The notes beneath the pieces were generated by a model that had not been told where the DNA came from, did not search any database, and worked only from the letters and a program-made list of their open reading frames with translations. Below, piece after piece: positions 4,664-21,800 of a stretch of 32,457 bases of DNA; position 1 is the first letter of the stretch, and every line of letters begins with the position of its first letter. Position numbers and translations under genes: made by a program. The stretch comes from Candidatus Stahliibacteriota bacterium (lineage in GTDB: Bacteria > Hydrothermota > Tepidihabitantia > SM23-42), in assembly GCA_030602565.1 (NCBI GenBank), contig JAUVZL010000032.1, forward strand, positions 1 to 32,457. The letters are read 5' to 3'.

Positions 4664-6728
4664 AGTAGCCAAAGATTTAGGTTTATCTAGCGCTGCATTG
4701 CTAAAGCTGTTGAAAGAACTGGACATAATAGTAAAAAGCCACATGTCAACTCTTTCTGAGGAAGAGATAAAAAAAGTCCGGCAGAAGATTTCAGAGGACA
4801 AAAAGAGAGTGAAGAAGGAATTTACTCGCCGCTACAAGAGACCAAAGGTTAAGATAATAAGGAAGAAGATCGATCCGGAAGCGATAAAAGAAAAAATAAA
4901 ATCGACCCTTGCCAAACTTGAGAAGAAAGAGATAAAAAAACACTACAAGCGTGAAATCCGGGTTAATGTTGAAGAAAAACCAAGTGAAAAAATCGTTGAA
5001 GTTGTCGACTTCATGACGGTGGCTGAATTTGCGCAGGCTTTGAAACTACCCACCAGCGATGTCATCAAGAAGTGTCTTGATTTGGGTTTAATGGTTAGTC
5101 TTAATCAGCGGCTTGATTTAGACACATTGACAGTTCTGAGTGATGAGTTTGGCTATGACGTGAAGGTTATGTCAATTGAAGACCAGATTGCGCCAGATGT
5201 TGAAGTGGAAGAACATGAAAGACCACCGGTTGTAACAATCATGGGTCACGTCGATCATGGTAAGACCACGCTCCTTGATGCCATCACCAAGTTGCGGATC
5301 GTAGAAGAGGAATACGGCAAGATCACCCAGCGCATGGCGGCTTATCAGATAGAATATCATGACAAGATCATTACCTTTCTGGATACACCGGGTCATGAAG
5401 CATTTACGGCGATGCGCGCGCGCGGTGCTCAAGTTACCGATATAGTCATCCTTGTGGTTGCCGCCGATGATGGTGTTATGCCGCAAACCGTTGAAGCAAT
5501 TGACCACGCACGTGCTGCAAATGTGCCGATAATCGTCTGCATCAATAAGATTGACTTACCCGGCGCGAACATCAACCGGGTGAAAACTCAACTCGCCAAG
5601 GCGAACGTTGTTATTGAAGATTTTGGGGGGAAATCAATTTGCGTTGAGACATCAGCTCTAAAAGGCGTCGGTATCTCAGATCTTCTGGATGCAGTGTTTG
5701 TTAAAGCTGAGGAGTTGAACCTGACCGCACCGTTTGATAAAAACGCCAAGGGGGTCGTTATTGAAGCGCGGCTCGACCGCGGTAAGGGTAACGTATCGAC
5801 AATCCTCGTCCAAGAAGGAAAGCTCAAAAAGGGTGATCCATTTGTCTGTGGCGCACATTTTGGTCGGGTTCGAGAAATATTTGATGAAAAAGTGAATAAA
5901 CTTACCGATGCTGGACCATCAACTCCGGTATTGGTTTTGGGATTCAGCGGTTTGCCTCAAGCTGGTGAAGTATTCTTTGTAGTAAATAATGAGCGGCAAG
6001 CTCGCGAGATTGCCGCTAAAAGGCAACTCGTGGAAAGAACGCGAAAACTCAAAGCAAAATCAAAAGTTACTTTGCTTGACCTTCAAGAAAAAATAAAGGC
6101 GGGAGAAACCAAAGAACTTAAACTCATTCTCAAAGCCGATGCCGCAGGTTCGGTGGAGGCTTTGGACGAGAAATTGAATGAGTTGAGCATGGAAGACGTT
6201 GGGGTCAAAGTTGTACACAAGGGCGTGGGTAAGATCAATGTATCAGATGTTTTGCTCGCTGAAGTCACTGGTGCGATATGCGTTGGGTTCCATGTTGGAC
6301 CGGATACGAATGCCTTTGATGCAGCAGAACGTGAGGGCGTTGAGATTCGGACTTACCGGTTGATCTATGAAGCACTTGACGACCTTAGATCTGCCATGTT
6401 AGGCATGTTGGAACCCATAATCACTGAAATTCTTATTGGCGAGGCTGAGGTCAGGGAGATATTTACCATTCCTAAATTCGGTTCGATCGCTGGTTGTTAT
6501 ATAAAAGACGGCAAGGTCCTGCGGGGTGCTGTCGCGCGTGTTAAGCGCGAGGGTAAAGAAATTCTGGTTTCAAAAGTTACCTCTCTCAAAAGATTCAAAG
6601 AAGATGTGAAGGAAGTATTGGCAGGATATGAATGCGGGATTGGTCTTGAACAAGGTAGTGATCTGCAACAGGGTGATACAATTCAACTCTACAAAGTAGA
6701 AGAAGCTACTGCCGAAGATGGTAAGTAA
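4641..6728 (+). CDS. infB: Translation initiation factor IF-2
   Basis: IF-2 is the GTPase that brings initiator fMet-tRNA to the 30S subunit and promotes subunit joining. The 695-residue product starts with an IF2_N-type helical module ([20 protein letters not shown]), then a lysine-rich linker and a second IF2_N-like segment ([20 protein letters not shown]). The G domain carries GHVDHGKT (about residue 202), DTPGHEAF (about 248) and NKID (about 302). Domains II-IV follow, including the C-terminal fMet-tRNA-binding barrel. The ATG at 4641 lies seven bases after AAGGAG (4628-4633), inside the nusA 3' end. The product is on the short side for the family because the N-terminal region is compact. 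Confidence 0.97.
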
Positions 6729-8962: not shown

Positions 8963-9832
8963 GTGAAAATACTTCTTGACAAGAGGGATTTGATCACTAA
9001 GGACTCGGTATGTGCCATTGGTAGTTTTGATGGTATTCATCGAGGTCACCAAGAGATTGTCAGGCGGCTGAGGAAAAATGCCGGGACCGACAATAGGGTT
9101 GGCATAGTGACATTTCTTCCGCTGCCTTTTTTTGTTCTTACTTCCTCGCCCATTATTTACCTTACTGTGAAGACTGAAAAGGAGTGGTTATTCAAAACAT
9201 TAGGCATTGATTACATATATTATTTCATGTTTACCAAGCGTTTTGCGCAGTATTCCGCGGCTGATTTCGTCGACTTGATCGCGCGTCAGATAAATCCTTC
9301 AACAGTAGTCGTTGGTGACAATTTTCATTTTGGACATGGGCGGGGAGGATCAGCCACGTTGTTAAGACAATTTGCAAAAGACAAGTTCGCAGTTGAAATC
9401 ATGTCGCGGGTAAAAGATGAAGGAACGATATCAAGCACCCGAATCAGGGAGCTTCTTCTTCTCGGTCATATAAAGGCAGCAAATAGATTGTTGGGCAGAC
9501 CGTATACGCTCACCGGTAGGGTTGTTCGGGGAAAAGGAAAGGGCACTAAGCTCGGGTTTCCTACTATTAACATCAGGCTGCCTAAGGAGAAGTTACTGCC
9601 TTTGGATGGCGTATATAAAGCGCAGGTTACATTAAAGCACCGAGACTATCTGAGTGCCATGTTTTGCCGTAATGACCTGGTTGAAGTGCACATCATAGGT
9701 TTTTTAGGTGACCTTTATCGTAAGAAAGTGTCTGTGCAAATCTGCCGGCGGATCCGGGGTATAGAACGTTTCCCAGACGACGAGTCATTGAGAGATGCAA
9801 TTGCGAAGGATGTGAAGGCGGTGAGGGAATAG
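8963..9832 (+). CDS. ribF: Bifunctional riboflavin kinase/FMN adenylyltransferase RibF
   Basis: RibF makes FMN from riboflavin and then FAD. The 289-residue product has the nucleotidyltransferase module first (GSFDGIHRGH, about residues 21-30; VVGDNFHFGHGRGG; ISSTRIREL) and the flavokinase module second (GRPYTLTGRVVRGKGKGTKL, LGFPTIN, DGVY, VEVHI, LYRKKVSVQ). The start is GTG 8963, three bases after truB. The stretch between DGVY and VEVHI is shorter than usual: the NxGxxPT-type loop seen in many homologues is absent. It is the last gene of the operon; rpsO, a common next gene, is not here. Confidence 0.92.
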   Translation: MKILLDKRDLITKDSVCAIGSFDGIHRGHQEIVRRLRKNAGTDNRVGIVTFLPLPFFVLTSSPIIYLTVKTEKEWLFKTLGIDYIYYFMFTKRFAQYSAADFVDLIARQINPSTVVVGDNFHFGHGRGGSATLLRQFAKDKFAVEIMSRVKDEGTISSTRIRELLLLGHIKAANRLLGRPYTLTGRVVRGKGKGTKLGFPTINIRLPKEKLLPLDGVYKAQVTLKHRDYLSAMFCRNDLVEVHIIGFLGDLYRKKVSVQICRRIRGIERFPDDESLRDAIAKDVKAVRE

Positions 9833-9905
9833 CACAAAAGACATTCTTCTTTAAATTCCTTTAAAAGTATTACAGTAATAATTTTTTATAGGATGGTTAA
9901 ATGAA

Positions 9906-9954
9906 ACCCCCACCCTTGCCCTCCCCCTTGAAGGGGGAGGATAAAGGAGGGGGT
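9906..9954. repeat. Long hairpin repeat (CCCCCTT/AAGGGGG type) at the island edge
   Basis: Two 24-base arms, 9906-9929 and 9931-9954, are inverted copies with four mismatches around a central G at 9930. The inner part, CCTCCCCCTT-G-AAGGGGGAGG, is perfect. Such G/C-rich hairpins built on this core recur as REP- or MITE-like elements in many bacterial genomes (general knowledge). It lies in the gap after ribF, just before the accessory island and the Shine-Dalgarno sequence of the next small ORF. No T-run follows either arm, so a terminator role is doubtful. Confidence 0.8.
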
Positions 9955-9968
9955 GAAAGGAGGTTTTG

Positions 9969-10088
9969 ATGTCTACTCGACAAGATAGAAAAAGATTGAT
10001 AATGCAATCACACAATGGCTATTTTTGGTTGCTACTGAGAAGTGTTGCTTTTTCAGAAATTCTAATTATAATTTATTATGGTGAGTAA
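9969..10088 (+). CDS. Small ORF, 39 residues, basic then hydrophobic
   Basis: An ATG at 9969 follows an almost perfect ribosome-binding site, AAAGGAGGT, ending at 9964. The product begins MSTRQDRKRLIMQSHNG and continues with a hydrophobic stretch (FWLLLRSVAF, ILIIIYY), so it could be a single-span membrane peptide. Its last 11 bases overlap the next small ORF. I do not recognise a family. No promoter was found upstream of it, and the promoter for the next ORF lies within it, so it may be a relic or a chance frame. Confidence 0.3.
   Translation: MSTRQDRKRLIMQSHNGYFWLLLRSVAFSEILIIIYYGE
10045..10072 (+). promoter_or_regulatory. Promoter of the defence island
   Basis: TTGCTT (10045-10050) and TATAAT (10067-10072) are separated by 16 bp, the spacing seen at most other promoters in the window. 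The -10 box is perfect and the -35 weaker. An ATG lies five bases downstream at 10078, the same geometry as at mutL, murA and the oligopeptidase gene. It is the only good promoter seen ahead of the radC-res block. Confidence 0.55.
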
Positions 10089-10224
10089 TCACATCATAGA
10101 GATATATATCAAAAGTACTTCGGATACAACCCCAAAATGGGAGGATATCCGAAGTGGTGCGGATATGAACGAGTTGTGCGAAATTGGGTCTGAGGTAATA
10201 GGAAATGCAAGAATTAAGGGATAA
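10078..10224 (+). CDS. Small ORF, 48 residues, predicted leaderless, overlapping radC
   Basis: The frame from ATG 10078 to TAA 10222 encodes a 48-residue acidic product (MVSNHIIEIYIKSTSD, then WEDIRSGADMNELCEIGSEV). Its ATG lies five bases after a perfect TATAAT, so it would be translated from a leaderless message. It overlaps radC by 20 bases in another frame and contains the radC Shine-Dalgarno sequence. It could be a leader peptide that couples translation into radC, a small regulator, or the truncated start of a lost gene. No family is recognised. Confidence 0.4.
   Translation: MVSNHIIEIYIKSTSDTTPKWEDIRSGADMNELCEIGSEVIGNARIKG
10117..10155. promoter_or_regulatory. Perfect 10-bp inverted repeat ahead of radC
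   Basis: ACTTCGGATA (10117-10126) and TATCCGAAGT (10146-10155) are exact reverse complements. A nested CCC/GGG pair (10131-10133 and 10139-10141) could extend the fold. It lies about 40 bases downstream of the predicted transcription start and about 50 before radC, so it could act as an operator or as an RNA hairpin. It also lies inside the 48-residue ORF. Confidence 0.45.
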
Positions 10225-10936
10225 AGTGGAAGGTCACAGAAAGAGGTTACGAGAGAAATTCATAAGATCTGGCATTTCGGGATTTCATGATTATGAGATA
10301 GTTGAATTGCTTTTAACCCTTGGAACCCCTCGGAAAGACTGTAAACAACAGGCAAAAGAAGCTATAAGAAAATTCAAAACTCTTCGTGGTGTTCTTGAAG
10401 CACTGATGGAAGAGCTCCAGGAAATTAAAGGAATTGGACCTCATAATGCCTTTGGCATAAAACTTGTTCAAGAGGTAGCCAGAGAGTTTCTCAAAGAGAA
10501 AATTCTTGAAAAATCCATCTGTAAATCCTCAAAAGAAATTTTTGATTATCTTTATCACTCTATGCGTGATCTTAAAAAAGAAGTCTTTAAAGTCGTCTTT
10601 TTGGATGGCAAAAATCAGATTGTAGAGATTGAGGACCTCTTCGAAGGTACATTAAATACATCATCGGTTTATCCTCGTGAAGTCATAAAAAGTGCCATCA
10701 AAAATAATGCTGTCGGCCTCATCTTTGTTCATAATCACCCCTCAGGAAATCCAGAACCTTCTCAGAGCGATAGGGATATAACAGAAGATTTAGTTTTTGC
10801 AGGCAATCTTATGCAGATTAAGGTCTTGGATCATATTATTATAGGTGATAATAAATATTTCAGCTTTGCAGATGAGAGACTGATTGAAGAATATAATCTA
10901 AATTTTTTGAGCCTGAAGAGAGGGAATAAAATATGA
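10205..10936 (+). CDS. radC: RadC-family JAB/MPN domain protein
   Basis: The 243-residue product has a helical N-terminal region (GHRKRLREKFIRSGISGFHDYEIVE split over the UPF0758 N-domain), a helix-hairpin-helix-like stretch (LQEIKGIGPHNAFGIKL, about residues 75-95), and a C-terminal metalloprotease-like MPN domain. The zinc motif HNHPSGNPEPSQSD places ligands at His176, His178 and Asp189. RadC was once called a DNA repair protein, but its role is unclear and it is often found on mobile or defence islands. The start follows GAGGT (10192-10196). Its stop overlaps the methyltransferase start by four bases (ATGA), tying it to the restriction genes. Confidence 0.9.
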   Translation: MQELRDKVEGHRKRLREKFIRSGISGFHDYEIVELLLTLGTPRKDCKQQAKEAIRKFKTLRGVLEALMEELQEIKGIGPHNAFGIKLVQEVAREFLKEKILEKSICKSSKEIFDYLYHSMRDLKKEVFKVVFLDGKNQIVEIEDLFEGTLNTSSVYPREVIKSAIKNNAVGLIFVHNHPSGNPEPSQSDRDITEDLVFAGNLMQIKVLDHIIIGDNKYFSFADERLIEEYNLNFLSLKRGNKI

Positions 10937-12990
10937 GTAAATTAAAAAAAGATGAAATTGAATTTATTACTCAATATCTAAAGCAAAGTAAGCCCATTCC
11001 GGATAGTTATAGATATATTATTCCTTTTGAAACGAAGAAGGAATATGAATTAACTTATGAAGGCAAAGAACGGGAAGAAGATATACTTGCAGATACTATG
11101 GCAGTTCCTCTCCAACCTGTAAAGACATTTGGTAATGGAAATGGTGGTTGGACTAACAAACTGATATTTGGTGATAATCTTCAGGTTCTTAAAGCCTTAA
11201 TGGACGATCCAGAGGTTTATGACAAAAACACTGGAAGAGGTAAGGTAAGATTGATTTATATCGATCCCCCCTTCGCTACAAGACAGGAGTTCAGGGGGAG
11301 TCAGGATCAGAAGGCCTATCAGGACAAGATTGTAGGTGCACAGTTTTTGGAATTTTTGCGAAAAAGGCTTGTCTTTTTGAGAGAACTTTTGGCAGAAGAT
11401 GGAAGTATTTATGTGCATTTGGATCAAAAGAAAGGACATTATGTAAAAGTATTATTGGATGAAATTTTTGGTGAACATAGATTCCAAAACGAAATAGTTT
11501 GGAAGAAGACCACAGCACCTAAAGAGCAATCCACTGCTTTTGGATATATCCATGATACTATATTCCTCTATTCGAAGGGAGCAGGTTTTCATTTCAATTC
11601 CCAATATATTCCCCTGAGGGAAGAGTACATCAATAATACATATAAATATGTTGAAAAAGAGACTGGAAGGAGATATGGCTCTTTTGATTTAACACAAAGT
11701 GGTCCAGGCCCTATAAGGCGATTTGGGGACGATGTTCTTGAACCACCTCCGGGTAAACATTGGATTTGGTCTCAAGAAAGAATAGATAAGGCTATGGAAG
11801 AAGGGATAATAATATTCACTAAGAGGGGTACACCACGAGTCAAAAAATACTTAGATGAACGTAAGGGGGAGCCGATAAAAGACATTTGGACTGATATTCT
11901 TGCAATCCAGGCTGGAGCGAAAGAAGACACAGGTTTTCCCACTCAAAAACCAGAAGCCTTACTTGAGCGAATCATCAAGGCTTCCTCTAAATCTGGCGAC
12001 ATTATCCTCGACGCCTTTGCCGGCTCTGGTACAACTGGAGCAGTGGCAGAGAAACTTAGCAGAAGATGGATAATGATTGACTGTGGCAAACTTGCTGTTT
12101 ATACAATGCAAAAAAGATTACTCAATCTTCGGAAAGAGATCGGTAATAAAGGGAAACTCCTAAAGCCAAAACCTTTCACTCTCTATAACGCTGGTCTATA
12201 TGATTATAAGATGGTTAAAGACCTTCCTTGGGATAAATACAGGGAATTTGTGCTTAAGCTTTTCCAATGCCGAGATGAAAAGCATAGAATTGCTGGAGTA
12301 GAATTGGACGGCTACCTTGGGCGAGATTCTGTGTTGGTTTTTAACTATAAAAAACATAAGGATGTGATTTTGGACAGGGAATTTATCGATGACCTTCATA
12401 AAGTTCTTGGTAACAGGGTAGGTTATAAATTCTTTATTGTTGCTCCGGCAGCAAGCGTTACATTCTTTGAGGATTATATTGAAAAAGGAAAGACAAAATA
12501 TTTTGCTTTGAGAATTCCTTATTCCATAATTGATGAACTCCACCGTAAAGGATTCACTCATATTAAGCAACCGATCAGGGAAGCAGATGTTAACGATACC
12601 ATTGATGCGGTGGGATTTGATTTTATTCAAATTCCTAATGTCGAATGTGACTATTTTATTAAAAAATCTAAAGGACAAATAGAGCGAAACAAAAGCAATA
12701 AAGAAGCAGTAATCAAAATCAGAAAGTTTAAGAGTAACATTTTATCTAAGAAGCCTCTCAAATTCGAGAATAGAGAAACCCTTTCAATGGTAATGGTAGA
12801 TTATGATTATAAAGGTGAAGTGTTTGATTTTGATGATGTCTTTTATGCTGAGGATTTAAAAAATAATAAATGGGAAATCCGTTTTGATGTTGGTAAAATA
12901 GATAAGCAAATTATGCTTATCTATATAGATATTTTTGGGAATGAAAAGAGGGAAGCGAAAAAAAGAAAAGATTTTAGGAGGGCAAGATGA
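10933..12990 (+). CDS. Site-specific DNA (adenine-N6) methyltransferase, type III Mod-like
   Basis: The 685-residue product carries the catalytic motif IV as DPPF (residues 111-114, in RLIYIDPPFATRQEF) ahead of the AdoMet-binding motif I, FAGSGTT (from residue 362). This order defines the beta class to which type III Mod subunits belong. A variable region of about 200 residues between them is the likely target-recognition domain. An unassigned C-terminal extension of nearly 300 residues follows. The predicted role is methylation of one strand at a short asymmetric site, plus recognition for the Res partner. The ATG follows AGAGAGGGA at 10917-10925 by seven bases and overlaps radC; the 3' end overlaps the PHP-ATPase gene by four bases. 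Confidence 0.9.
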   Translation: MSKLKKDEIEFITQYLKQSKPIPDSYRYIIPFETKKEYELTYEGKEREEDILADTMAVPLQPVKTFGNGNGGWTNKLIFGDNLQVLKALMDDPEVYDKNTGRGKVRLIYIDPPFATRQEFRGSQDQKAYQDKIVGAQFLEFLRKRLVFLRELLAEDGSIYVHLDQKKGHYVKVLLDEIFGEHRFQNEIVWKKTTAPKEQSTAFGYIHDTIFLYSKGAGFHFNSQYIPLREEYINNTYKYVEKETGRRYGSFDLTQSGPGPIRRFGDDVLEPPPGKHWIWSQERIDKAMEEGIIIFTKRGTPRVKKYLDERKGEPIKDIWTDILAIQAGAKEDTGFPTQKPEALLERIIKASSKSGDIILDAFAGSGTTGAVAEKLSRRWIMIDCGKLAVYTMQKRLLNLRKEIGNKGKLLKPKPFTLYNAGLYDYKMVKDLPWDKYREFVLKLFQCRDEKHRIAGVELDGYLGRDSVLVFNYKKHKDVILDREFIDDLHKVLGNRVGYKFFIVAPAASVTFFEDYIEKGKTKYFALRIPYSIIDELHRKGFTHIKQPIREADVNDTIDAVGFDFIQIPNVECDYFIKKSKGQIERNKSNKEAVIKIRKFKSNILSKKPLKFENRETLSMVMVDYDYKGEVFDFDDVFYAEDLKNNKWEIRFDVGKIDKQIMLIYIDIFGNEKREAKKRKDFRRAR

Positions 12991-15761
12991 AAATAGAAGA
13001 AATTTTAAAGAAAGCTAACGGAGCAAATTTCTATCTTTCAGATTTACATATCCATACACCTGCTGATAAAAGTAAAAGATACGAAATGTCAAGCGAACAA
13101 AAGCAGTTACATGATGAAGATTGGTGTAGGCAATATACCAGAAGAATAATTGAAGAAGCTTACAAAAAGAAAATTGCAGTTATGGGGATTACTGACCATA
13201 ATTCTGCAGAATGGATTGATTATTTTAATGAAGAAGTGAAGAATATAAATCCTCCGAAGGGACAAAGGAGAATAGTTATTTTTCCTGGTTTTGAAGTAAA
13301 CACAAATACAGGAAGCGGGGTTCATATTATTTGTTTGTTTAATCCGGGCACATCTAAAGTAAAGTTGGTTGAATATCTATCAGCTCTTTTTGAAGCTGAA
13401 AAGAGATTTGATTCAAGAGGCTATCCAAAAGTTGCTAAAAAAGGTTGTAATGAAGTAATTGATTTTATCCAAGATAAAGGTGGTATTTGTATTGGAGCAC
13501 ATGCATTATCCGACAACGGAGTCCTTTCGGGTTATGCCGACCAGCCAAGAATGGCGACATTTACTAATCCTAAATTATTAGCTATTGAAATTCCTGGAGC
13601 ACGTTCTGAATTAACAGGGTTTGGAAAAAATGCAATTGATGGACTTGATTCTAATTACAAAAGAGAGAGAAAAATTGCAACTATAAATTCTTCTGATTCT
13701 AATTCCTTAGACAAGATTGGGGAGAAGACAACCTATATAAAAATGAGTTCCGTTACAGTAGAGGGTTTAAGAGAAGCTTTTCTTGATTGGGAATCACGCA
13801 TTCGTTTGAAAGAAGAACTTGGAAAAGCAAAATATGCGGTGATTATAGGGGCGAAATGGGAAGGAGGAGGGTGTTTTCTTGATAACCAGATGGTTCATTT
13901 TAATGGAAATTTGAATACCCTTATTGGAGGGAAAGGAACTGGGAAGTCAACAATTATCGAAACTCTACGATATGTATTTAATCAGCAACCTAAATCATCA
14001 AACGCTGAAAAAGCTTATCAAGAAATTATAAAGGATGTATTTAAAAGTGGGTCAAATTTGCAGGTAATAGTATATTCTCCACATCTTGATAGACACTATC
14101 TTATTGAGAGAAGTTATCCTGGCGAGCCATTAGTAAAAAGTATTGACGAAGAATTGCTTAAGCAAGAAAATATCATCAAAGAAAAGGAAATTGTTAAATT
14201 GCCTATTGAAAGTTTATTTGTTCCTGAAATTTATGGACAAAAAGAGATTTATGACATTTCTGGCGATAAGTCTTTCCAGTTAAAATTAGTAGATAGATTT
14301 TTGGATGAGAAATTTACGCAATTGGAGACAGAAGAAGGTAATTTATTAAAACAGCTAAAAACCGACAAAAGGGATCTCATTGGCACTCTGGAATCCTTAG
14401 ATAAAATTGAAGAGAATAATAAAGAATTGCTTGAGATAAGGGAGAAAAAACAAAAATATATTGAACGGGGTATCCAAGAAAGATTGCGGACCCAAAGAAA
14501 TTATGAAAAGGAAAAGTTCCTGTTGGAAAGAGCTATAAAAAAAATTAATGATTTGGAAGATGGTTTTGCAGAATTTTTTGACACAATAGATATAGATATT
14601 ACTTTTATATCAGATAAGTCTATTGAAGATTTACCTAACAAGAATATCCTAAAAAAAGGAAGAGAAGAATTGGAAACGATATTTGGTTTTTTGAAAAACA
14701 AAAGGATTGAAATAAAGAATGCTATAGCAGATACTAATAATAAGCTTGCTAAAATAAAAACAGAGTGGGAACCTTTATATAATAAACAGCAAAAGGAATA
14801 TCAAAAAATAATAGATAACTTGCAAAAAGAAGGCTTGCCTTTAGACCCAGAGGAATTTATGCAACTTGAACGAAGAGAAAACCTGCTTAAATCCATAGTA
14901 AGCGATAAAGACAAATACGATAAAACAAAGGAAAAGTTGGAAGCAAATAGGAGAAAACTGCTTGATCAGCTAAATAAAGTTCGTTTAGAGCAATTTAACA
15001 AACGAAAAGAAGTTGAAAAGATGATAAATGAGAAATTAAAAGGCATTTTAAAAATAGATGTTAAATATGCGGTCAATCGCGACGGCTTTATAGAAAAACT
15101 TTTGGGTTATAGTTCTCGTGAAAGCATAATTAGAAAGGATCCGATTAAAGAAATGGTTAAAAATGATAGGTTTAATGTGAGACTTTTTATTGAAACTCTA
15201 AGAAAAGGGGAGAAAGCACTTATTGATGATTTAGGCTTAACTTCGGGCACCGCTGCAAGTTTATATCGGGCAATTCCCGTGGAGGATTATTATGATATTG
15301 AGACATTAGCCTTTGACCAAGAAACCCTAATTAAGCTATATATTGGCCCTCCTGAAGTGCAAATTTCTAAACGGAGTGACGATATGTTTAAAGAAATTGA
15401 GCATTTATCTAAAGGGCAGAAATCTACGGCAATACTTACACTCGTACTTTTAAAATCGGACTATCCTCTTATTATAGACCAACCAGAAGATGATCTTGAT
15501 AACCGTTTTGTTGTTGATGATGTGGTAAAAAGACTTCGGGTCGAAAAAGAGAGGAGGCAATTTATAATTGCAACACATAATGCAAATATAACTATTTCAG
15601 CAGATTCTGAATTAATTTTAGCCTTAGATGCAGATGAAAAGAGAGGTTGGGAGCAGACATCAGGTTCTATTGATGACCAAGAGGTTAAGGAAGCAGTTGA
15701 GAGGATTATTGAGGGGGGTAAAGATGTTTTCCTTCTCAGAAAGGAAAAATATGGATTTTAG
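12987..15761 (+). CDS. PHP-domain SMC-like ATPase (TrlF/Ppl-like)
   Basis: The 924-residue protein begins with a PHP metal-hydrolase domain: DLHIHTPAD (Asp19, His21, His23), GITDHNS, FPGFEVNT, GAHAL and a late Asp in NSSDSNS. An ABC/SMC-type ATPase follows: Walker A GGKGTGKST (Lys320), a long charged coiled coil (about 430-690), signature LSKGQKST (807-814), Walker B LIIDQPEDDLD (Asp831) and an ATHNANI H-loop. This architecture is known from PHP-ATPases annotated as TrlF-family and from the single-gene anti-phage protein Ppl, going by memory of those families. The predicted role is ATP-gated nucleic-acid cleavage. SD AGGAGGG at 12976-12982; overlaps mod by four bases. Confidence 0.88.
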   Translation: MKIEEILKKANGANFYLSDLHIHTPADKSKRYEMSSEQKQLHDEDWCRQYTRRIIEEAYKKKIAVMGITDHNSAEWIDYFNEEVKNINPPKGQRRIVIFPGFEVNTNTGSGVHIICLFNPGTSKVKLVEYLSALFEAEKRFDSRGYPKVAKKGCNEVIDFIQDKGGICIGAHALSDNGVLSGYADQPRMATFTNPKLLAIEIPGARSELTGFGKNAIDGLDSNYKRERKIATINSSDSNSLDKIGEKTTYIKMSSVTVEGLREAFLDWESRIRLKEELGKAKYAVIIGAKWEGGGCFLDNQMVHFNGNLNTLIGGKGTGKSTIIETLRYVFNQQPKSSNAEKAYQEIIKDVFKSGSNLQVIVYSPHLDRHYLIERSYPGEPLVKSIDEELLKQENIIKEKEIVKLPIESLFVPEIYGQKEIYDISGDKSFQLKLVDRFLDEKFTQLETEEGNLLKQLKTDKRDLIGTLESLDKIEENNKELLEIREKKQKYIERGIQERLRTQRNYEKEKFLLERAIKKINDLEDGFAEFFDTIDIDITFISDKSIEDLPNKNILKKGREELETIFGFLKNKRIEIKNAIADTNNKLAKIKTEWEPLYNKQQKEYQKIIDNLQKEGLPLDPEEFMQLERRENLLKSIVSDKDKYDKTKEKLEANRRKLLDQLNKVRLEQFNKRKEVEKMINEKLKGILKIDVKYAVNRDGFIEKLLGYSSRESIIRKDPIKEMVKNDRFNVRLFIETLRKGEKALIDDLGLTSGTAASLYRAIPVEDYYDIETLAFDQETLIKLYIGPPEVQISKRSDDMFKEIEHLSKGQKSTAILTLVLLKSDYPLIIDQPEDDLDNRFVVDDVVKRLRVEKERRQFIIATHNANITISADSELILALDADEKRGWEQTSGSIDDQEVKEAVERIIEGGKDVFLLRKEKYGF

Positions 15762-15770
15762 GGGGCGATA

Positions 15771-16934
15771 ATGAATAAGATTGAATTATTAGAAATAGTC
15801 AAAAAGGGCGAGGATTCTTTTACAGAATTTAAGGAAGAAGGTATTCATTCTGATAAACTGGCAGCAGAGATAGTTGCTTTTGCAAATACAGAAGGAGGGA
15901 ATCTAATAATTGGTGTCTCTGATGAGGGAGAAATAGTTGGTGTTACAGAGATAGATAAAGAGATGCAACGAATAGATGATATATGTGTTAATAATTGTGA
16001 GCCAACCATTGATTCAACCACTGAGAAGATAATCATAGATGATAAAAAAGTTCTTGTTGTTAGGATATCCAAAGGCCCTCAAAGGCCTTATAGAACCAAT
16101 AAAGGAGTTTACTATATAAGAACCAGTAGCGGGAGAAGACAGCCGAGTAGAGAGCAACTTATGCGACTATTTGAAGCAGCCAAAACTATATATTACGATG
16201 AGCTGCCTGTTCCTAATACATCTCCTGAAGACATAGACCTTGAATATTTTGAGGAATTTCTAAAGAAATCCCTTAGGGGAAAGATTGAAGATTTTGGAAT
16301 AAAGACTGAGGATCTTTTAAAAAATATGAAGATATTAACACCCTATGAAAGTGATATGGTAACTACTACCGGGGGGTTACTATTCTTCGGAAAACATCCA
16401 GAATATCATTTACCCTACTGTAAAGTGACGATTGTGAGATTTCCGGGTAATGACATTGGCGAGAAATTTGAGAAAAAGGATATAGAAGGAAGAATTACTG
16501 ATCAGATTGAGAGAACAGACATAATATTAAAAGATTATTTAAGGTCTGAAACCAAAATAGAGGGGTTTAAAAAAGAAGAACCCCGTTATGAAATTCCCTT
16601 TGAATCCTTAAGAGAAGCGGTAATAAATGCTGTTGCTCATCGAAATTACCAATTACCCTCACAGATTAGAATATTCATTTTTGATAATAGAATAGAAGTA
16701 AAAAGCCCAGGGAAACTTCCTAATACAGTAACTATTGAGAATATTAAATTAGGGTTCCCTCTTCATCGAAATCCCCTTATAGTTTCCTTCCTCGCTAAAG
16801 AGCATAGAATGACAGAAATTGGGACTGGCATTCCCAGAATGATTAGGCTTCTAAAAGAACATACCGGCAGAGAGCCTGATTTTGAAGAGAGGGATCAAGA
16901 ATTTGTTGTAAGAATCTGGAGACCGGATTTATGA
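15771..16934 (+). CDS. AlbA_2 (Schlafen-type) / HATPase_c_4 protein
   Basis: The 387-residue product has an N-terminal Schlafen AlbA_2 domain (about residues 8-125: GEDSFTEFKEEG, AAEIVAFANTEGGNLIIGVS, GVYYIRTSSGRRQPSREQL). A C-terminal region (about 275-385: LREAVINAVAHRNY, IEVKSPGKLPNTVT, GTGIPRMIRLL) matches the HATPase_c_4/RecG-like module of proteins often labelled putative transcriptional regulator or ATP-dependent helicase, although no helicase motifs are present. It probably binds nucleic acid and ATP. It begins nine bases after the PHP-ATPase stop, behind a G-rich ribosome-binding site, and overlaps res by four bases (ATGA). It could regulate the locus or act as an effector. Confidence 0.88.
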   Translation: MNKIELLEIVKKGEDSFTEFKEEGIHSDKLAAEIVAFANTEGGNLIIGVSDEGEIVGVTEIDKEMQRIDDICVNNCEPTIDSTTEKIIIDDKKVLVVRISKGPQRPYRTNKGVYYIRTSSGRRQPSREQLMRLFEAAKTIYYDELPVPNTSPEDIDLEYFEEFLKKSLRGKIEDFGIKTEDLLKNMKILTPYESDMVTTTGGLLFFGKHPEYHLPYCKVTIVRFPGNDIGEKFEKKDIEGRITDQIERTDIILKDYLRSETKIEGFKKEEPRYEIPFESLREAVINAVAHRNYQLPSQIRIFIFDNRIEVKSPGKLPNTVTIENIKLGFPLHRNPLIVSFLAKEHRMTEIGTGIPRMIRLLKEHTGREPDFEERDQEFVVRIWRPDL

Positions 16935-19429
16935 CAGTAGATAAAAGGGTATTCAAAAATCAGGATCTTGTTCTTAAGGTCTCTCCAAATATTGACCCTG
17001 AAAAGTTTGATATAAATAAATATGAGGCATTTCTTGATGCCCTATGTGGAGAGAGGGAATATCAGAAAGAGACTATAAGGGTTATCTTGCGGTATCTCAT
17101 GGGAGGTCAGTATAATAACCTTAAGGAATTAGCAGAGGAGAATTACCACCAGAATCCAGTTTTACAGGAAAGATATGGATCTTTAGAAGATTTCTATAAA
17201 CATTTGCAGCTACCAGACAAACTTTCCTGCACAATAGACTTAGCTACTGCTACCGGTAAGAGCTATGTCCTTTATGGAATTGCTCGAATTATGCTTGCCG
17301 AGGGGGTCGTAGATCAAGTATTAGTTCTTTGTCCCTCCAATACCATTGAAACCGGTCTTACAGAAAAATTCCGCTCAAAATCAGCCAATGGAATCCTAAA
17401 GGATTTGCTACCAGATTCTGCAAAGATTCTAAACCCAAGAATCATTAATGCCACCCAGACCATAAGAAAAGGAGATATTTGCATAGAGAATATCCATGCC
17501 ATTTATAAGCGAACCAAATCTGCCATAGAAGATAGTCTCGTAGGTAAAGGTGAAAGAACGCTGGTATTGAATGATGAAGTTCACCACATGGCTAATCCTC
17601 CTGCTCGTGATGAAGCAATAAAGAAATGGAAAGAATTTTTGCTAAGTCCTAAATACAATTTCAGATACATAGTTGGGGATTCAGGCACGTGCTATGTTGG
17701 CAATGATTATTTTGCAGATGTGATTTATCGTTTCTCTTTAAGAGATTCCATAGAAAATAGGTTCATAAAAACGATTGATTATGTTGCTGAGGATATTTCT
17801 CATTCAAAGGAGGAAAAGTTCCAGAAAATTTACGATAACCACATCCAGAATAAAACGATGAAATACCGTTTGATTAAACCTCTTACTATTTTAGTTACGA
17901 AAGACATTAGTGCTTGTAAGAGACTAAGAGAGGATTTAATTGAGTTTGTTGCTGAAAAGGAGAATATAAATAAAGAGACGGCAGAGAGTAAAGTTTTGAT
18001 TGTAACTTCTGCTAATGAGCACAAAGATAATATACCAAAGTTAAAAGATGTAGATGATAAGGATAATCCAGTTGAGTGGATTACATCTGTAAGCATGCTG
18101 TCAGAAGGTTGGGATGTACAAAATGTGTGCCAGATTGTTCCGCATGAGGAGAGGGCATTTAATTCTAAACTACTTATAGCACAAGTGCTCGGAAGAGGTT
18201 TGAGAATACCGCCAGAGTATAAAGGAGAACAACCTGTTGTAACTGTATTCAATCACGATAAATGGTCAAGTAGCATCAAACATCTTGTCAACGAAGTTCT
18301 TGAAATAGAGAAAAGGATCCATAGCTATGTTATACCCAAAGACAGGAATTACAATTTCCAGATTCAGAATATAGATTACAAAAAAACCGAAGAGATTGTA
18401 GAGATTCCAAAGATTACTGAGTATAATTTCAGTAAAGGATTTATTTCTTTGAGCAGTGAAGATCAGACGCGAAGAATAGAAGAAGAAACTACTTACGAAC
18501 GTGTTGTAACAGAAAAAAGACGAGAAAAGATCACTGTCATAGAATTTAGAATGTATTCTACCGAAGAGCTTGCTCAAGTTATCCACAATAGGTATAGAAG
18601 TTGGGATATGGATGAAGGTACTAATTATGCACAGAAGTACCCTTTTGATAAGATATTGGCAATCATAAAAAACTCTCTCAGAGATAAGGAAAATTTAGTT
18701 AATGAGATGGGTCGGCAAAAGATATTGAACTCCTTCGGAGTGGTAAGAAGGAAGAAGACCAAAAGTCTGAGGTATAAAATCGAGGCCGAGAACCTTTTTT
18801 CAAAAAATACAGCAACGATTGATAAAAATTCATTGGGGGTCGGCTCACTAAGAAGGGATGGCAGCATTTTCTATGACGATTTCTCTTTAAAGAACGGAGA
18901 AGATGACGATAGAGAGCTGTTAAAAGAATTATTGGATGATGAAACCCTTCCACGGTATGCATTACAGAAGATCGAGAATACCTTCAATTTCAAGACACCT
19001 TTAAATATCGTTCTTGCCTCATTCAAACCAGAAAGGGATTTCATTAAGAAATTGGTCGGCGAAGAAAATGCCAAGAAAATAGATGCATGGATAAAATCTC
19101 TTGATGTGGGATTCTACAGCGTGGACTATTCTTGGAGAAAAGGAGAGCATCCAAAACAGGGAAGTTTCAACCCGGACTTCTTTATAAAAATTGGAAGAGA
19201 TATATTAGTAGTGGAGATAAAGATGGATGCTGATATATCCAATGAAAATAGAGCAAAACTTAGATATGCGAGAGAGCATTTCAACCGGGTAAATAAGCTA
19301 CAGTCTGAATACAAGTATTATTTTAAATTCCTTTCTCCCTCAAGTTACGATCTTTTCTTTCAAGGTCTGAGAGAAGGGAAATGCAAAACATTCAAGTCAA
19401 AGATTGAGGCTGAATTAGATGAGACATGA
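16931..19429 (+). CDS. Type III restriction enzyme Res-like helicase/nuclease
   Basis: The 832-residue product joins a superfamily 2 translocase to a C-terminal nuclease. Motif I is LATATGKS (Lys110), motif II is DEVHH (Asp215, Glu216), and late helicase motifs appear in SMLSEGWDVQNV and LIAQVLGRGLRIP. Near the C-terminus a PD-(D/E)xK nuclease is visible: PDFFIK (Asp749) and VVEIK (Glu762, Lys764). This is the domain order of type III Res subunits, which cut DNA when partnered with Mod. Here the two are separated by two unrelated genes rather than adjacent. It is somewhat shorter than the common Res length of roughly 900-1000 residues. Start ATG 16931 is coupled to the upstream stop. Confidence 0.9.
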   Translation: MTVDKRVFKNQDLVLKVSPNIDPEKFDINKYEAFLDALCGEREYQKETIRVILRYLMGGQYNNLKELAEENYHQNPVLQERYGSLEDFYKHLQLPDKLSCTIDLATATGKSYVLYGIARIMLAEGVVDQVLVLCPSNTIETGLTEKFRSKSANGILKDLLPDSAKILNPRIINATQTIRKGDICIENIHAIYKRTKSAIEDSLVGKGERTLVLNDEVHHMANPPARDEAIKKWKEFLLSPKYNFRYIVGDSGTCYVGNDYFADVIYRFSLRDSIENRFIKTIDYVAEDISHSKEEKFQKIYDNHIQNKTMKYRLIKPLTILVTKDISACKRLREDLIEFVAEKENINKETAESKVLIVTSANEHKDNIPKLKDVDDKDNPVEWITSVSMLSEGWDVQNVCQIVPHEERAFNSKLLIAQVLGRGLRIPPEYKGEQPVVTVFNHDKWSSSIKHLVNEVLEIEKRIHSYVIPKDRNYNFQIQNIDYKKTEEIVEIPKITEYNFSKGFISLSSEDQTRRIEEETTYERVVTEKRREKITVIEFRMYSTEELAQVIHNRYRSWDMDEGTNYAQKYPFDKILAIIKNSLRDKENLVNEMGRQKILNSFGVVRRKKTKSLRYKIEAENLFSKNTATIDKNSLGVGSLRRDGSIFYDDFSLKNGEDDDRELLKELLDDETLPRYALQKIENTFNFKTPLNIVLASFKPERDFIKKLVGEENAKKIDAWIKSLDVGFYSVDYSWRKGEHPKQGSFNPDFFIKIGRDILVVEIKMDADISNENRAKLRYAREHFNRVNKLQSEYKYYFKFLSPSSYDLFFQGLREGKCKTFKSKIEAELDET

Positions 19430-19449
19430 TAAGAATCAGGCAGAACTTC

Positions 19450-19529
19450 GCACAACAGCGGATAAAAGGGAAATCAAAGATTTCCCAAAATTGCCTTCGG
19501 CAACTTCTTTTATCCGCAAAGCGTTAGGC
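19450..19529. repeat. attC-like folded site after res
   Basis: An 11-bp perfect inverted repeat, GCGGATAAAAG (19458-19468) and CTTTTATCCGC (19507-19517), encloses two further hairpins: GGGAAATC-AAA-GATTTCCC (19468-19486) and TTGCC-TTC-GGCAA (19491-19503). Outside it on the right, after a five-base spacer, lies GTTAGGC (19523-19529), which fits the integron recombination core GTTRRRY. On the left, GCACAAC (19450-19456) resembles the RYYYAAC partner but misses at one position and sits one base from the stem. The 80-base span is within the usual attC size range. No integron integrase is in the window. An alternative is a stable RNA fold or terminator-like element at the end of the res operon. 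Confidence 0.4.
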
Positions 19530-19580
19530 GAAAGGCCAGTTTTTTCTTTAATCTCTCACATGAAATGATTGAACACAAAA

Positions 19581-19862
19581 ATGAATCAGAATAGACTAGA
19601 ATATCTCTTTAACTTGTATAAATTACATAAAAACCGATTTGACCACTTAGTAGAGTTTCTAAGGAAAAATAAAAATTTTGTAGAGGGGTTTGATTATAGG
19701 TCAACTATCTCTTTGATCCAGGTACTTAAATATGCCAAAGATAAGATATATTTTTTATTGGGTCTTCTCCTTACCGAGTGGGTGGAAATTGATGAAAGAG
19801 CACGGGGAAAACATGTTTACAGACCAAGTAAAAAAGGGGTGATATTACTGTCAGTCAAATAA
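19581..19862 (+). CDS. Small ORF, 93 residues, possible winged-helix protein
   Basis: I start at ATG 19581; a TTG four codons earlier is possible. The product is basic, with helical stretches (NRLEYLFNLYKLHKNRFDHL, LIQVLKYAKDKIYFLLGLLL) and an ending, EWVEIDERARGKHVYRPSKK followed by GVILL, that looks like the wing and last strand of a winged-helix DNA-binding domain. No ribosome-binding site or promoter is clear. It follows the attC-like site by about 50 bases, the layout of a cassette gene. The family is not recognised and its expression is uncertain. Confidence 0.5.
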   Translation: MNQNRLEYLFNLYKLHKNRFDHLVEFLRKNKNFVEGFDYRSTISLIQVLKYAKDKIYFLLGLLLTEWVEIDERARGKHVYRPSKKGVILLSVK

Positions 19863-19872
19863 CTCCATGAGC

Positions 19873-19954
19873 TGCCGGCACCTGCCACGACCTGCCGGCG
19901 GACAGCCGAGCCGGCTATATGACTTGCCGGCACCTGCCACGACCTGCCGGCGGA
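19873..19954. repeat. Two exact 30-bp GC-rich direct repeats
   Basis: Identical 30-base copies lie at 19873-19902 and 19925-19954, 52 bases apart start to start. Each begins TGCCGGCACCTGCC and ends GACCTGCCGGCGGA, so the outer GCCGGC blocks can pair. They are strikingly GC-rich beside the AT-rich island and sit between the small ORF and mutL. With only two copies there is no basis for a CRISPR call. Together with the REP-like hairpin at 20052-20065 they fill most of the 288-base gap before mutL. Confidence 0.85.
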
Positions 19955-20051
19955 TTAGTTGAAGTAAGATGTTTTAGTTTACGACGGCACAGAAAGAAGT
20001 TTGGTCATAAGTTATTCACATTCGACAAAATCATTGCTCCAGATTGATCAC

Positions 20052-20065
20052 GGGCGTAAACGCCC
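20052..20065 (-). repeat. REP-like hairpin ahead of mutL
   Basis: GGGCGT-AA-ACGCCC is a perfect 6-bp stem. Read on the minus strand it appears as GTAGGGCGTTTACGCCCG. That shares the pattern GTAG, stem, TTTA loop, stem with the element at 21874-21889. It probably belongs to a dispersed extragenic hairpin family. Confidence 0.5.
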
Positions 20066-20117
20066 TACTCCGGTATGGTCGCTGAACTTTCCAGAAAGCT
20101 TTAAACTTTCTGCCTTC

Positions 20118-20145
20118 TTGACTTATGTCTATTCTTCCATAGAAT
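20118..20145 (+). promoter_or_regulatory. mutL promoter, predicted leaderless
   Basis: TTGACT (20118-20123) and TAGAAT (20140-20145) with a 16-bp spacer; the mutL ATG follows five bases later at 20151. No Shine-Dalgarno sequence is present in front of that ATG. The position fixes the mutL start, because upstream in-frame starts would lie before the promoter. Confidence 0.6.
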
Positions 20146-20150
20146 TGGCT

Positions 20151-21800
20151 ATGGCAAGGATTGAAATTCTGCATCCTGAGGTCAGAAGCAAAATTGCCGC
20201 AGGTGAAGTCATTGCCCGTCCACATTCCGTAGTCAAAGAGCTTATTGAGAATTCCATAGATGCTTATGCACGACGTATTGATATCGTACTCAATGATGGT
20301 GGTAAGCAAGACATTCTGGTAAATGATGATGGCTGCGGTATGAGTCGCGATGATGCGGTACTTGCAATAGAAAGGTATGCAACAAGCAAGCTAAAGACCG
20401 TCGCGGATATTGAGCACATTACCACATATGGATTCCGAGGTGAAGCCCTGGCAAGTATCGCTCAGATATCACAATTCGAGTTGGAAACATCAGATAATAC
20501 TGGAGGTACGAAAATCATCGTGGCTGGAGGTGAGTTAAAGGATATCATCGATTCACACCGTCCTCAGGGCACCAGAGTGAAAGTGTCCAATATCTTCTTT
20601 AACCTACCTGCACGCCTAAAGTTTTTGAAATCAAGTCAGTGGGAGAAACGTCTCATCTTGGATGTCGTAAAGAGCTATGCACTCATTAACCCTTCGATAT
20701 ATTTTGGCCTAGCAGAATCGGATCGTAAGGTGCTGGATTTTGTCGCCACAGATTCTTTTGAAAAGCGTATAAAGATGTTTTTTCCCAATCGCGTTGTTGA
20801 AGCTTTAATACATCTCGACATCAAAATAGGTGCTGTACGATTTATTGGATTCTTAACCCGTCCTGATTTCTTTGCCCGACACCACATGAACTACCTTTAT
20901 GTTAATGCGCGACCGGTGAGATATGCAAGGCTTTACCGAACCATTGTTAATGCCTATCAGAATCCCAAAAGTCCACCTGGATTTGTATTGAACATCGAGA
21001 TCCCACCCAGCATGGTAGATGTCAACATACATCCGACTAAGCAAGAAGTTAGGTTCAGAGATGAACACTACGTCCTTGATTTGCTTAGCCAAGCGATAAA
21101 AACCAAAGTGTTCACAAAGGTAGGACAGGTTGGTTTTAGAACTTCGCCACCTGTGTCAGCCACGCGAGATGAGAGGAGGACCGATACAAAGTTTGTCCAG
21201 GAGACGGTTTTGCCTTATTCGTCAGAGCGCGTCGCTGAACTGTTGAGTGATAGAGAATCGAATGAGTTCTGGCAGCTGCACGATACCTATATTCTATCCC
21301 AAACGAAATCAGGTTTGATTATTGTAGACCAGCACGTCGCACACGAACGCATAATCTATGAGTCAATAACTAAAGGTAAAGGTGGTTCCCAGCGATTATT
21401 GTTTCCGATTACCCTTGAGCTTATGCCTGAAGAGTATCGCGCTTACCAAAAAACCAAATTGTTACTAAAGGAACTCGGCATTGAATTCAAGGAGTTTTCC
21501 GCACATACGATTGTGATCGACAGTCTTCCAGCTGATGCCCATGTGAACCGGGATGACTTGGTTGATTTGTTCAAGGAACTGGATGCTTTGGGCAATTTGA
21601 TTAAACAGCGTAATGAGGTTGCTAAGGTGGTGGCCTGCAAAAGCGCGATAAAGGCTGGGCAGCGACTCTCGATTAATGAAATGCGTAGCCTGATCGATCG
21701 CTTGTTCGCCTGTGAAAACCCATATACTTGTCCACATGGTAGACCGATCGTAATAAAATTTTCGCTCGACGAACTTGGTAATAGGTTTGGGAGAGCATAA
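20151..21800 (+). CDS. mutL: DNA mismatch repair endonuclease MutL
   Basis: MutL links MutS mismatch recognition to strand incision. I start at ATG 20151 (MARIEILHPEVRSKIAAGEV), where homology begins and just after the promoter; the frame is open further upstream but that part is not MutL-like. This gives 549 residues. The GHKL ATPase domain has ENSIDA, DDGCGM, RYATSKL and YGFRGEALASIA, and the transducer domain has VNARPVR and NIHPTKQEVRF. The C-terminal domain carries DQHVAHERIIYE (from Asp393), the endonuclease metal motif with Val for the usual Ala, plus ACKSAIKAG and CPHGRP (527-532). These imply an active nicking MutL that does not depend on MutH. Confidence 0.95.
   Translation: MARIEILHPEVRSKIAAGEVIARPHSVVKELIENSIDAYARRIDIVLNDGGKQDILVNDDGCGMSRDDAVLAIERYATSKLKTVADIEHITTYGFRGEALASIAQISQFELETSDNTGGTKIIVAGGELKDIIDSHRPQGTRVKVSNIFFNLPARLKFLKSSQWEKRLILDVVKSYALINPSIYFGLAESDRKVLDFVATDSFEKRIKMFFPNRVVEALIHLDIKIGAVRFIGFLTRPDFFARHHMNYLYVNARPVRYARLYRTIVNAYQNPKSPPGFVLNIEIPPSMVDVNIHPTKQEVRFRDEHYVLDLLSQAIKTKVFTKVGQVGFRTSPPVSATRDERRTDTKFVQETVLPYSSERVAELLSDRESNEFWQLHDTYILSQTKSGLIIVDQHVAHERIIYESITKGKGGSQRLLFPITLELMPEEYRAYQKTKLLLKELGIEFKEFSAHTIVIDSLPADAHVNRDDLVDLFKELDALGNLIKQRNEVAKVVACKSAIKAGQRLSINEMRSLIDRLFACENPYTCPHGRPIVIKFSLDELGNRFGRA

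Follow-up and report, generated by a model that had tools for sequence, protein, structure and literature searches.

What placed a restriction-modification (R-M)-like gene island between two recombination-site-like edges is the question raised by contig JAUVZL010000032.1 of Candidatus Stahliibacteriota bacterium (phylum WOR-3/Caldifarciminota), of which positions 1 to 32,457 were analysed and are referred to here as the window. An initial annotation, made from the letters alone, had pointed to an attC-like site at the right edge of the island, followed by a small cassette-like open reading frame (ORF), and had proposed integron-type cassette capture at that edge. The present analysis of the window, of its own genome (G000) and of relatives supports this proposal, and the matching of cassette heads and tails extends it to the whole island and to an attI-like site on the left. 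The explanation that best covers the whole, and that we regard as probable on sequence grounds, is that the site is the attC of a single 9.35-kb cassette, standing at an attI-like site and carrying a five-gene R-M-like operon.

An attC-type site at the right edge

The structure described by the initial annotation, an 11-bp perfect outer stem that encloses two inner hairpins and is followed, after a five-base spacer, by GTTAGGC, is read directly at 19458-19529 (Table 1). The left stem, GCGGATAAAAG, begins one base after the box GCACAAC and pairs over its whole length with the right stem, CTTTTATCCGC; the two hairpins lie between the stems, and the right stem is followed by the spacer AAAGC and then by GTTAGGC. 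Folded as single-stranded DNA, 19446-19533 reaches −20.6 kcal/mol against −8.4 (sd 2.2) for shuffled sequences (z −5.6), and none of 200 shuffles was as stable. The site is a palindrome of the integron kind, ending in boxes of the RYYYAAC and GTTRRRY type and folding as a single strand. The RYYYAAC consensus expects a pyrimidine at the third position, where GCACAAC has an A, as do other members of the attC family described here.

A covariance model, R1, was built from four seed attC sites of G000, the window site included; the seeds came from a DNA search of the genome, which gave a 75%-identical relative on contig C18 and a weaker match on C50, and from reading of their neighbourhoods, and a degenerate short palindrome on C18 (L011 2792-2824) was excluded from the seed alignment. 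The seed sites share their boxes and the linker between the two arms. The window site scores 84.7 bits with R1, for which it is itself a seed, and 69.7 bits with a wider attC model, R2, in whose training set it stands. No other attC was found in 9500-20300 with R2 run unfiltered, the second-best value, 12.2 bits, being the opposite strand of the same site.

The initial annotation had suggested running an attC covariance model over the region and the genome, and this gave further matches in G000. R1 returned 12 at E ≤ 1, the four seeds and eight others, of which seven were at E ≤ 0.05; the non-seed matches lie on C82 (E 4e-9), C67, C18 (three), C40, C50 and C12 (E 0.66). On C18 several attCs form an array on one strand, with no integrase match on the contig. 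Beyond this genome, R1 found the family at E ≤ 0.001 in 17 of 61 genomes (G000 and 16 of 60 relatives), and R2 in 63 of the 147 genomes of the phylum, G000 counted.

Covariation was examined in 47 aligned sites, an alignment that was fitted to the model, so that the test favours structure: 84.9% of cells were paired where shuffles gave 69.2%, and over the two helices the covariation score was 0.43, with 0.17 for shuffles. Neither value was equalled in 500 shuffles, nor was the count of cells with double changes. Two measures were weaker, 22 of 500 shuffles reaching the observed value for pairs with a double change and 1 of 500 that for further pair types; slid controls of the alignment were only 23-45% paired. 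Of the 47 sites, 42 have a single nucleotide between R'' and L'', and 40 have a 3' spacer of 5 nt. With model family, fold and covariation behind it, the attC-like call holds, and 19448-19533 is almost certainly a genuine attC-type site.

The L helix is symmetric, with no asymmetric bulge, in 42 of the 47 sites and has one extra 5' base in three, whereas a class 1 attC control has one extra 5' base (in nearly the same analysis, with a 5' arm of 15 rather than 12 bases). The extrahelical L-helix base of integron attCs thus appears to be absent from most sites of this family; since the model used to gather the sites had no bulge there, this is a lean and not proof. Passages of PMC3053210 describe IntI as contacting two extrahelical attC bases, T12'' and G20'', the latter through the I2 helix. 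Unpaired bases deeper in attC could replace the missing one.

Matching of cassette heads and tails

The R'' box of a cassette should pair with the head of its own cassette and not with the head of the following one. The reverse complement of the window tail, GTTGTGCGAAGTTC, matches the head GTTGTGCGAAATTG at 10173 at 9 of 11 scored positions and the following head, GTTAGGCGAAAGGC, at 6 of 11. GCACAAC, which the initial annotation had found an imperfect partner, pairs better with GTTGTGCGAA at 10173 than with GTTAGGC. Among 605 GTT positions in the window G10173 ranks first, the runner-up having 7 matches, and one of the two own-head mismatches falls on the eleventh base, a mismatch common to many cassette pairs. 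Because the best match of the tail is the head at 10173, the attC appears to close a cassette that starts at 10174. The small ORF can no longer be taken as the cassette of this attC, as initially annotated: the attC belongs to the upstream R-M operon and the ORF lies in the next cassette. From these comparisons it is likely that the island 10174-19523 is one gene cassette carrying the whole operon.

The same matching was seen in other arrays, with the window left out of both means. Across 26 attC-to-attC cassettes, drawn from 53 of 57 attC hits after omission of the four weakest (E 0.08 to 0.19), tails matched their own heads at a mean of 7.42 of 11 positions, the next heads at 4.88 and shuffled heads at 5.31. 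For attI-to-attC cassettes 18 pairs were picked by hand, one with a weak attC (L095 2542, E 0.12) among them and attI hits without a following attC omitted; in the 17 that entered the mean the values were 6.88, 4.59 and 4.88. In neither test were any of 5000 shuffles as high.

An attI-like site at the left edge

No attC was found at the left edge by R1 or R2. The bases before 10173 resemble both those that precede a similar operon in the relative G011 and those that follow the integrase gene of a second relative, G024, and the layout X - palindrome - X' - X - GAACGA|GTT was seen downstream of most integrase homologues read. For an attI model, R3, 18 sites next to integrase genes were used (seven from WOR-3 loci and 11 from named genomes), the window and G011 being excluded. 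With R3 the left edge of the window scores 70.3 bits (E 7.7e-12 genome-wide) and is the top match in G000, and the left edge in G011 scores 65.5 bits. The window has no second attI at E ≤ 0.05. There are 14 R3 hits in G000 at E ≤ 0.01, or about 12 places once overlapping two-strand hits are merged, and one or more hits occur in 15 of 40 genomes. Searching for the attI end by pattern proved too loose, as 127 of 147 genomes and reversed-pattern controls also matched, and R3 was used instead. Insertion at an attG (chromosomal site) was also considered for this edge and was dropped once the attI family emerged.

An R3 site lies at or just after the integrase stop in 11 of 12 WOR-3 loci, seven of which had been used in building the model. 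The loci hit outside its training are L151, L152, L157 and L159, the last by a weak hit (E 0.00018) that overlaps the integrase stop; L156 has no hit. A scan of named genomes kept 80 loci out of at least 562 encoding a relative of the integrase, and adjacency was counted over 79 of them (in L221 no integrase end was found): in 29 of these loci an R3 attI starts between −80 and +120 bases from the integrase end, 18 of the 29 being outside R3 training, and three extra plus-strand hits lie elsewhere (the second hit of L163, L179 and L183). An attI beside an integrase gene is a feature of these relatives; the attI-like site of the window stands without an integrase.

Two further loci show attI-like sites in series. 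On C67 (L095, all on the minus strand) they lie at 6225, 3540, 2329 and 658, in a row within about 6 kb and mixed with one strong and one weak attC hit, attI being seemingly repeated inside arrays. In a Spirochaetes metagenome-assembled genome, two tandem attI-like units are seen by eye behind the integrase (L172:9046-9175), where R3 gives one hit per strand.

Linked integrases and the missing insertion

The G024 integrase, used as query at E ≤ 1e-60, has homologues in 12 of the 147 phylum genomes. Five WOR-3 integrases were scanned, and all score as members of NF040815, the XerA-type family named 'site-specific tyrosine recombinase/integron integrase' (232-248 bits, cut-off 220); the family is not specific, because the window's own XerD also just passes (221.9). 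With the integron-integrase profile TIGR02249 the five reach 218-228 bits, below the cut-off of 265, and the match is split into two stretches. The best match of solved structure is IntI4 (2A3V), of which about 42 residues have no counterpart, and the distance from KGxKxR to HxLRH is 64-71 residues in the 87 of 92 loci where it was measurable against 108, counted from two residues earlier, in an IntI1 control. The linked integrases lack the insertion of about 40 residues, that is, the IntI-specific (I2) domain.

Relatives in the named-genome scan are recorded under WOR-3, Nitrospirae, Nitrospinae, Atribacteria, Aminicenantes, Micrarchaeota, Altarchaeum, Bacillota, Bacteroidota and others; many of these records are metagenome bins, in which an individual short contig could be wrongly assigned. 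The integrase of L164 is identical to that of G017, from the window's family, and the two are probably one contig. At E ≤ 0.05 R2 gave 64 attC hits in 29 of the 80 named loci. Downstream of the integrase and on the same strand are 55 of them; three are upstream on that strand, and six, all in L181, are on the other strand. Hits in Paenibacillaceae and Bacteroidota were mostly weak (E ~0.004 and above). Fifteen named loci combine an attI next to the integrase with an attC downstream. In a tree of 84 proteins, a clade of 22 (support 94/94, not starred) includes 16 attC-linked members, which come from several phyla and from both domains, and IntI1 sits on a long branch.

The I2-less XerA-like integrase is in our view the likeliest working enzyme, a step that we favour with some reserve. 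One could instead suppose a classical integron, in which a canonical I2-bearing IntI, since lost or missed in assembly, did the insertion and the XerA-like integrases are not the enzyme. Clusters of attC without an integrase are common according to passages of PMC9668308 and PMC8618304, and the G000 assembly is 96% complete and in 104 contigs. The intI gene that the initial annotation had proposed to look for was not found, however: none of 61 genomes (G000 and 60 relatives) passes the NCBIfam integron-integrase cut-off, in a search that held no canonical IntI as positive control. The attI type in question lies directly behind or overlapping the stop of XerA-like integrases in the WOR-3 loci counted above, and also in named bacteria and archaea, and we consider a classical integron rather unlikely.

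Matches to TIGR02249 at E 1e-3 occur in all 14 control genomes and are by themselves no evidence of IntI; those in G000 include the window XerD and a Xer-like protein on C67. A match in G005 adjoins an ORF resembling an IS91-type transposase and was set aside. No decayed integrase was found to the left of the attI by tblastn of window 9601-10300 (best E 0.97). Among the findings that the initial annotation had listed as contrary to its proposal, namely no attC-model hit, no integrase anywhere in the genome and the fold occurring only as a terminator-like repeat, the lack of an integrase alone was borne out, and that in part, given a 175-aa recombinase beside an attI on C82.

This recombinase is a catalytic-domain-only tyrosine recombinase directly before the attI-like site 7180-7268 of L029:6618-7789 (minus strand), accompanied by a DnaJ zinc-finger-like ORF and an attC at 6618-6712. 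It may be a fragment or a mini-recombinase, and a small integrase in G000 is possible. An N-terminal extension with the consensus GHRWHPExKYW is present in six of seven aligned integrases (L094:2614-2970 and relatives); it had no Pfam match in the one integrase scanned.

The operon and other large cassettes

The five genes between the two sites are listed in Table 1. Their packing is tight, three of the four junctions being overlaps and the remaining one a 9-base gap. Mod and Res are encoded together, with extra ATPase genes, as in type III R-M systems, an assignment made by profile only. The window differs from such systems in its Mod, which has no hit to the type III methylase domain PF12564 and whose best-scoring profile is a type II methyltransferase. 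The operon may be an R-M-like antiviral defence.

Table 1. Coordinates of the two recombination sites, the putative cassette and the genes in the window
Feature	Position	Strand	Detail
attI-like site	10103..10182	+	X ACTTCGGATA, central CCCCAAAATGGG palindrome, inverted X', second X TGCGGATAT, GAACGA, crossover G10173|T10174
Putative single gene cassette, 9,350 bp	10174..19523	+	Head TTGTGCGAAATT to G of attC R' box
radC-like gene (JAB domain)	10205..10936	+	Pfam RadC 1e-46; start 31 bases after first base of cassette
mod: N6/N4 DNA methyltransferase	10933..12990	+	Pfam PF01555 4e-48; PADLOC type II/III methyltransferases
TrlF-family PHP/SMC-like ATPase	12987..15761	+	NCBIfam NF045780 473 bits, cut-off 350
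Schlafen/AlbA_2 domain protein	15771..16934	+	Pfam PF04326 8.6e-28
res: type III restriction subunit-like	16931..19429	+	Pfam ResIII 1.2e-11; PADLOC REase_III 9.2e-12; stop 20 bases before R''
attC	19448..19533	+	R'' GCACAAC 19450-19456, L'' 19458-19468, two-armed top, L' 19507-19517, R' GTTAGGC 19523-19529
Head of next cassette TTAGGCGAAA and ORF of unknown family	19524..19862	+	ORF 19569-19862, TTG start, 97 aa

Operons of related content end at attCs in two relatives. G010 has a mod-AAA-Res operon with an attC on either side (7,120 bp), preceded by a ClpP-like cassette and a weaker attI (42.8 bits), and in G011 a mod-AAA-Res operon is bounded by an R3 attI and an attC (7,243 bp); the Mods of both large cassettes have PF12564. 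These cassettes are supporting and not proving, because their head/tail matches are moderate.

The size of the window cassette invites the explanation that a small ordinary cassette stood here, into which transposition or homologous recombination later brought the R-M operon, and that the cassette never moved as 9.35 kb. None of the 26 attC-to-attC cassettes measured is as long (their median is ~1.2 kb and the largest is 7.1 kb), and passages of PMC3087341 give 1,860 bp as the longest cassette in a mobile-integron feature database. Little of the cassette is anything but operon, however, with 31 bases before the first start, 20 between the last stop and R'', and genes that overlap or nearly abut, and R-M operons terminate at attCs in two other genera; we judge a later insertion quite improbable. 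That the right-edge site is a terminator-like or REP-like repeat resembling the integron core boxes by chance, as a strong hairpin soon after a stop codon might suggest, is scarcely credible given the conserved boxes and spacers, the covariation in 47 sites, the matching to its own head and the linkage of attI and integrase.

A second mod-res pair occurs on C62 of G000 (L092:1939-6519; res 45% identical), beside an ORF resembling a KAP-type P-loop NTPase. No attC hit was found at this pair or at a res homologue in G037, in the stretches read.

The next cassette downstream

The small ORF reported by the initial annotation is present at 19569-19862; its length is 97 residues from a TTG, and the 93 residues first given correspond to a later start codon. 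It had no Pfam, NCBIfam or PADLOC match at 0.001. Two near-identical 36-base GC-rich repeats, 52 bases apart, lie at 19867-19954, where the attC of this second cassette would be expected; the repeat was not found in eight other G000 stretches at 25 of 31 matches.

Discussion

Taken together, the two ends of the island would be explained by the following course of events. An integrase, most likely the XerA-like recombinase found directly upstream of such attIs in relatives, would cut the folded attC of a circular cassette on one strand, and the cut attC would be joined to attI between G and TT, at the crossover G10173|T10174. The new cassette would land next to attI, and the older one, with head TTAGGC and the 97-aa ORF, would be pushed downstream. 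As no homologue was found in G000, the integrase would presumably have acted in trans, or before it was lost.

Several observations weigh against a single cassette moved by such an integrase. Neither G000 nor its genus has an integrase homologue at E ≤ 1e-60 or a TIGR02249 match at E ≤ 1e-30. In 50 of the 79 named loci the integrase has no R3 attI next to it, and over the whole integrase tree the attC label clusters weakly (44 of 500 shuffles as low). On a 14-position count the own head is not the better match in 7 of the 26 attC pairs, and it is not better in 4 of the 17 attI pairs, one of them the 6.3-kb stretch of L103, which breaks the head/tail rule as does a 5.7-kb stretch in L106. The two giant cassettes that lend support fit moderately (L108 10/14, with three core bases wrong; L117 6/11). 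The attC of the second cassette was not found, no tail in 19560-20160 exceeding 9/14 against its head. There is also no clean empty site: between the counterparts of window 9760 and 20115, G003 (MutL 97% identical) has about 530 bases, which align with the window only through short repeat-like matches, so that the cassette ends cannot be mapped by comparison.

The system described here shares with IntI integrons, bacterial and, in passages of PMC9668308, archaeal, the attC hairpins with R and L boxes, the G|TTRRRY crossover, an attI by the integrase gene, co-oriented cassettes and integrase-less arrays. It differs from them in linked integrases without the IntI-specific insertion, in most sites lacking the extra L-helix base of class 1 attC, in spacers of mostly 1 and 5 nt, in attI-like sites dispersed over the genome and in a whole-operon cassette. 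XerA is a chromosome-dimer resolvase; here, in contrast, attI and attC cassettes come after the gene, and most of the aligned proteins carry the N-terminal extension. A cluster of at least two attCs in a row without an integrase (CALIN) describes contig C18 of G000 and does not describe the window, which has a single attC together with an attI-like site.

Passages of PMC7790495 hold the I2 domain to be necessary for cassette capture and found in no other protein, and the dependence between I2 and the attC extrahelical bases has been called a 'chicken-egg paradox' (PMC4792948, in part). In open-licence literature without preprints, among the matches listed (title and start of abstract), there was no account of I2-less integrases with attC arrays, or of a multi-gene R-M cassette of such size; integrons in WOR-3 had none in the same literature, both words occurring together in no paper. 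Earlier work on any of these three subjects may exist. The archaeal integron survey, as passages of PMC9668308 state, required an IntI-specific domain for detection. Detection of this kind would miss I2-less integrases and report attC clusters only.

The integrons of this phylum seem to use an integrase without the part thought essential for cassette capture. We incline, by a little, to a broader view in which they belong to a widespread bacterial and archaeal integron lineage, with integrases lacking I2, attCs lacking the L-helix base that I2 reads, dispersed attIs and whole R-M operons moving as 7-9 kb cassettes. If this is true, a complete defence system of several genes would be shown to fit into one cassette. 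A natural system seemingly without both I2 and the attC extrahelical bases makes the chicken-egg question testable at the bench, and the I2-less lineage, if real, would offer a present-day proxy for the pre-I2 integron.
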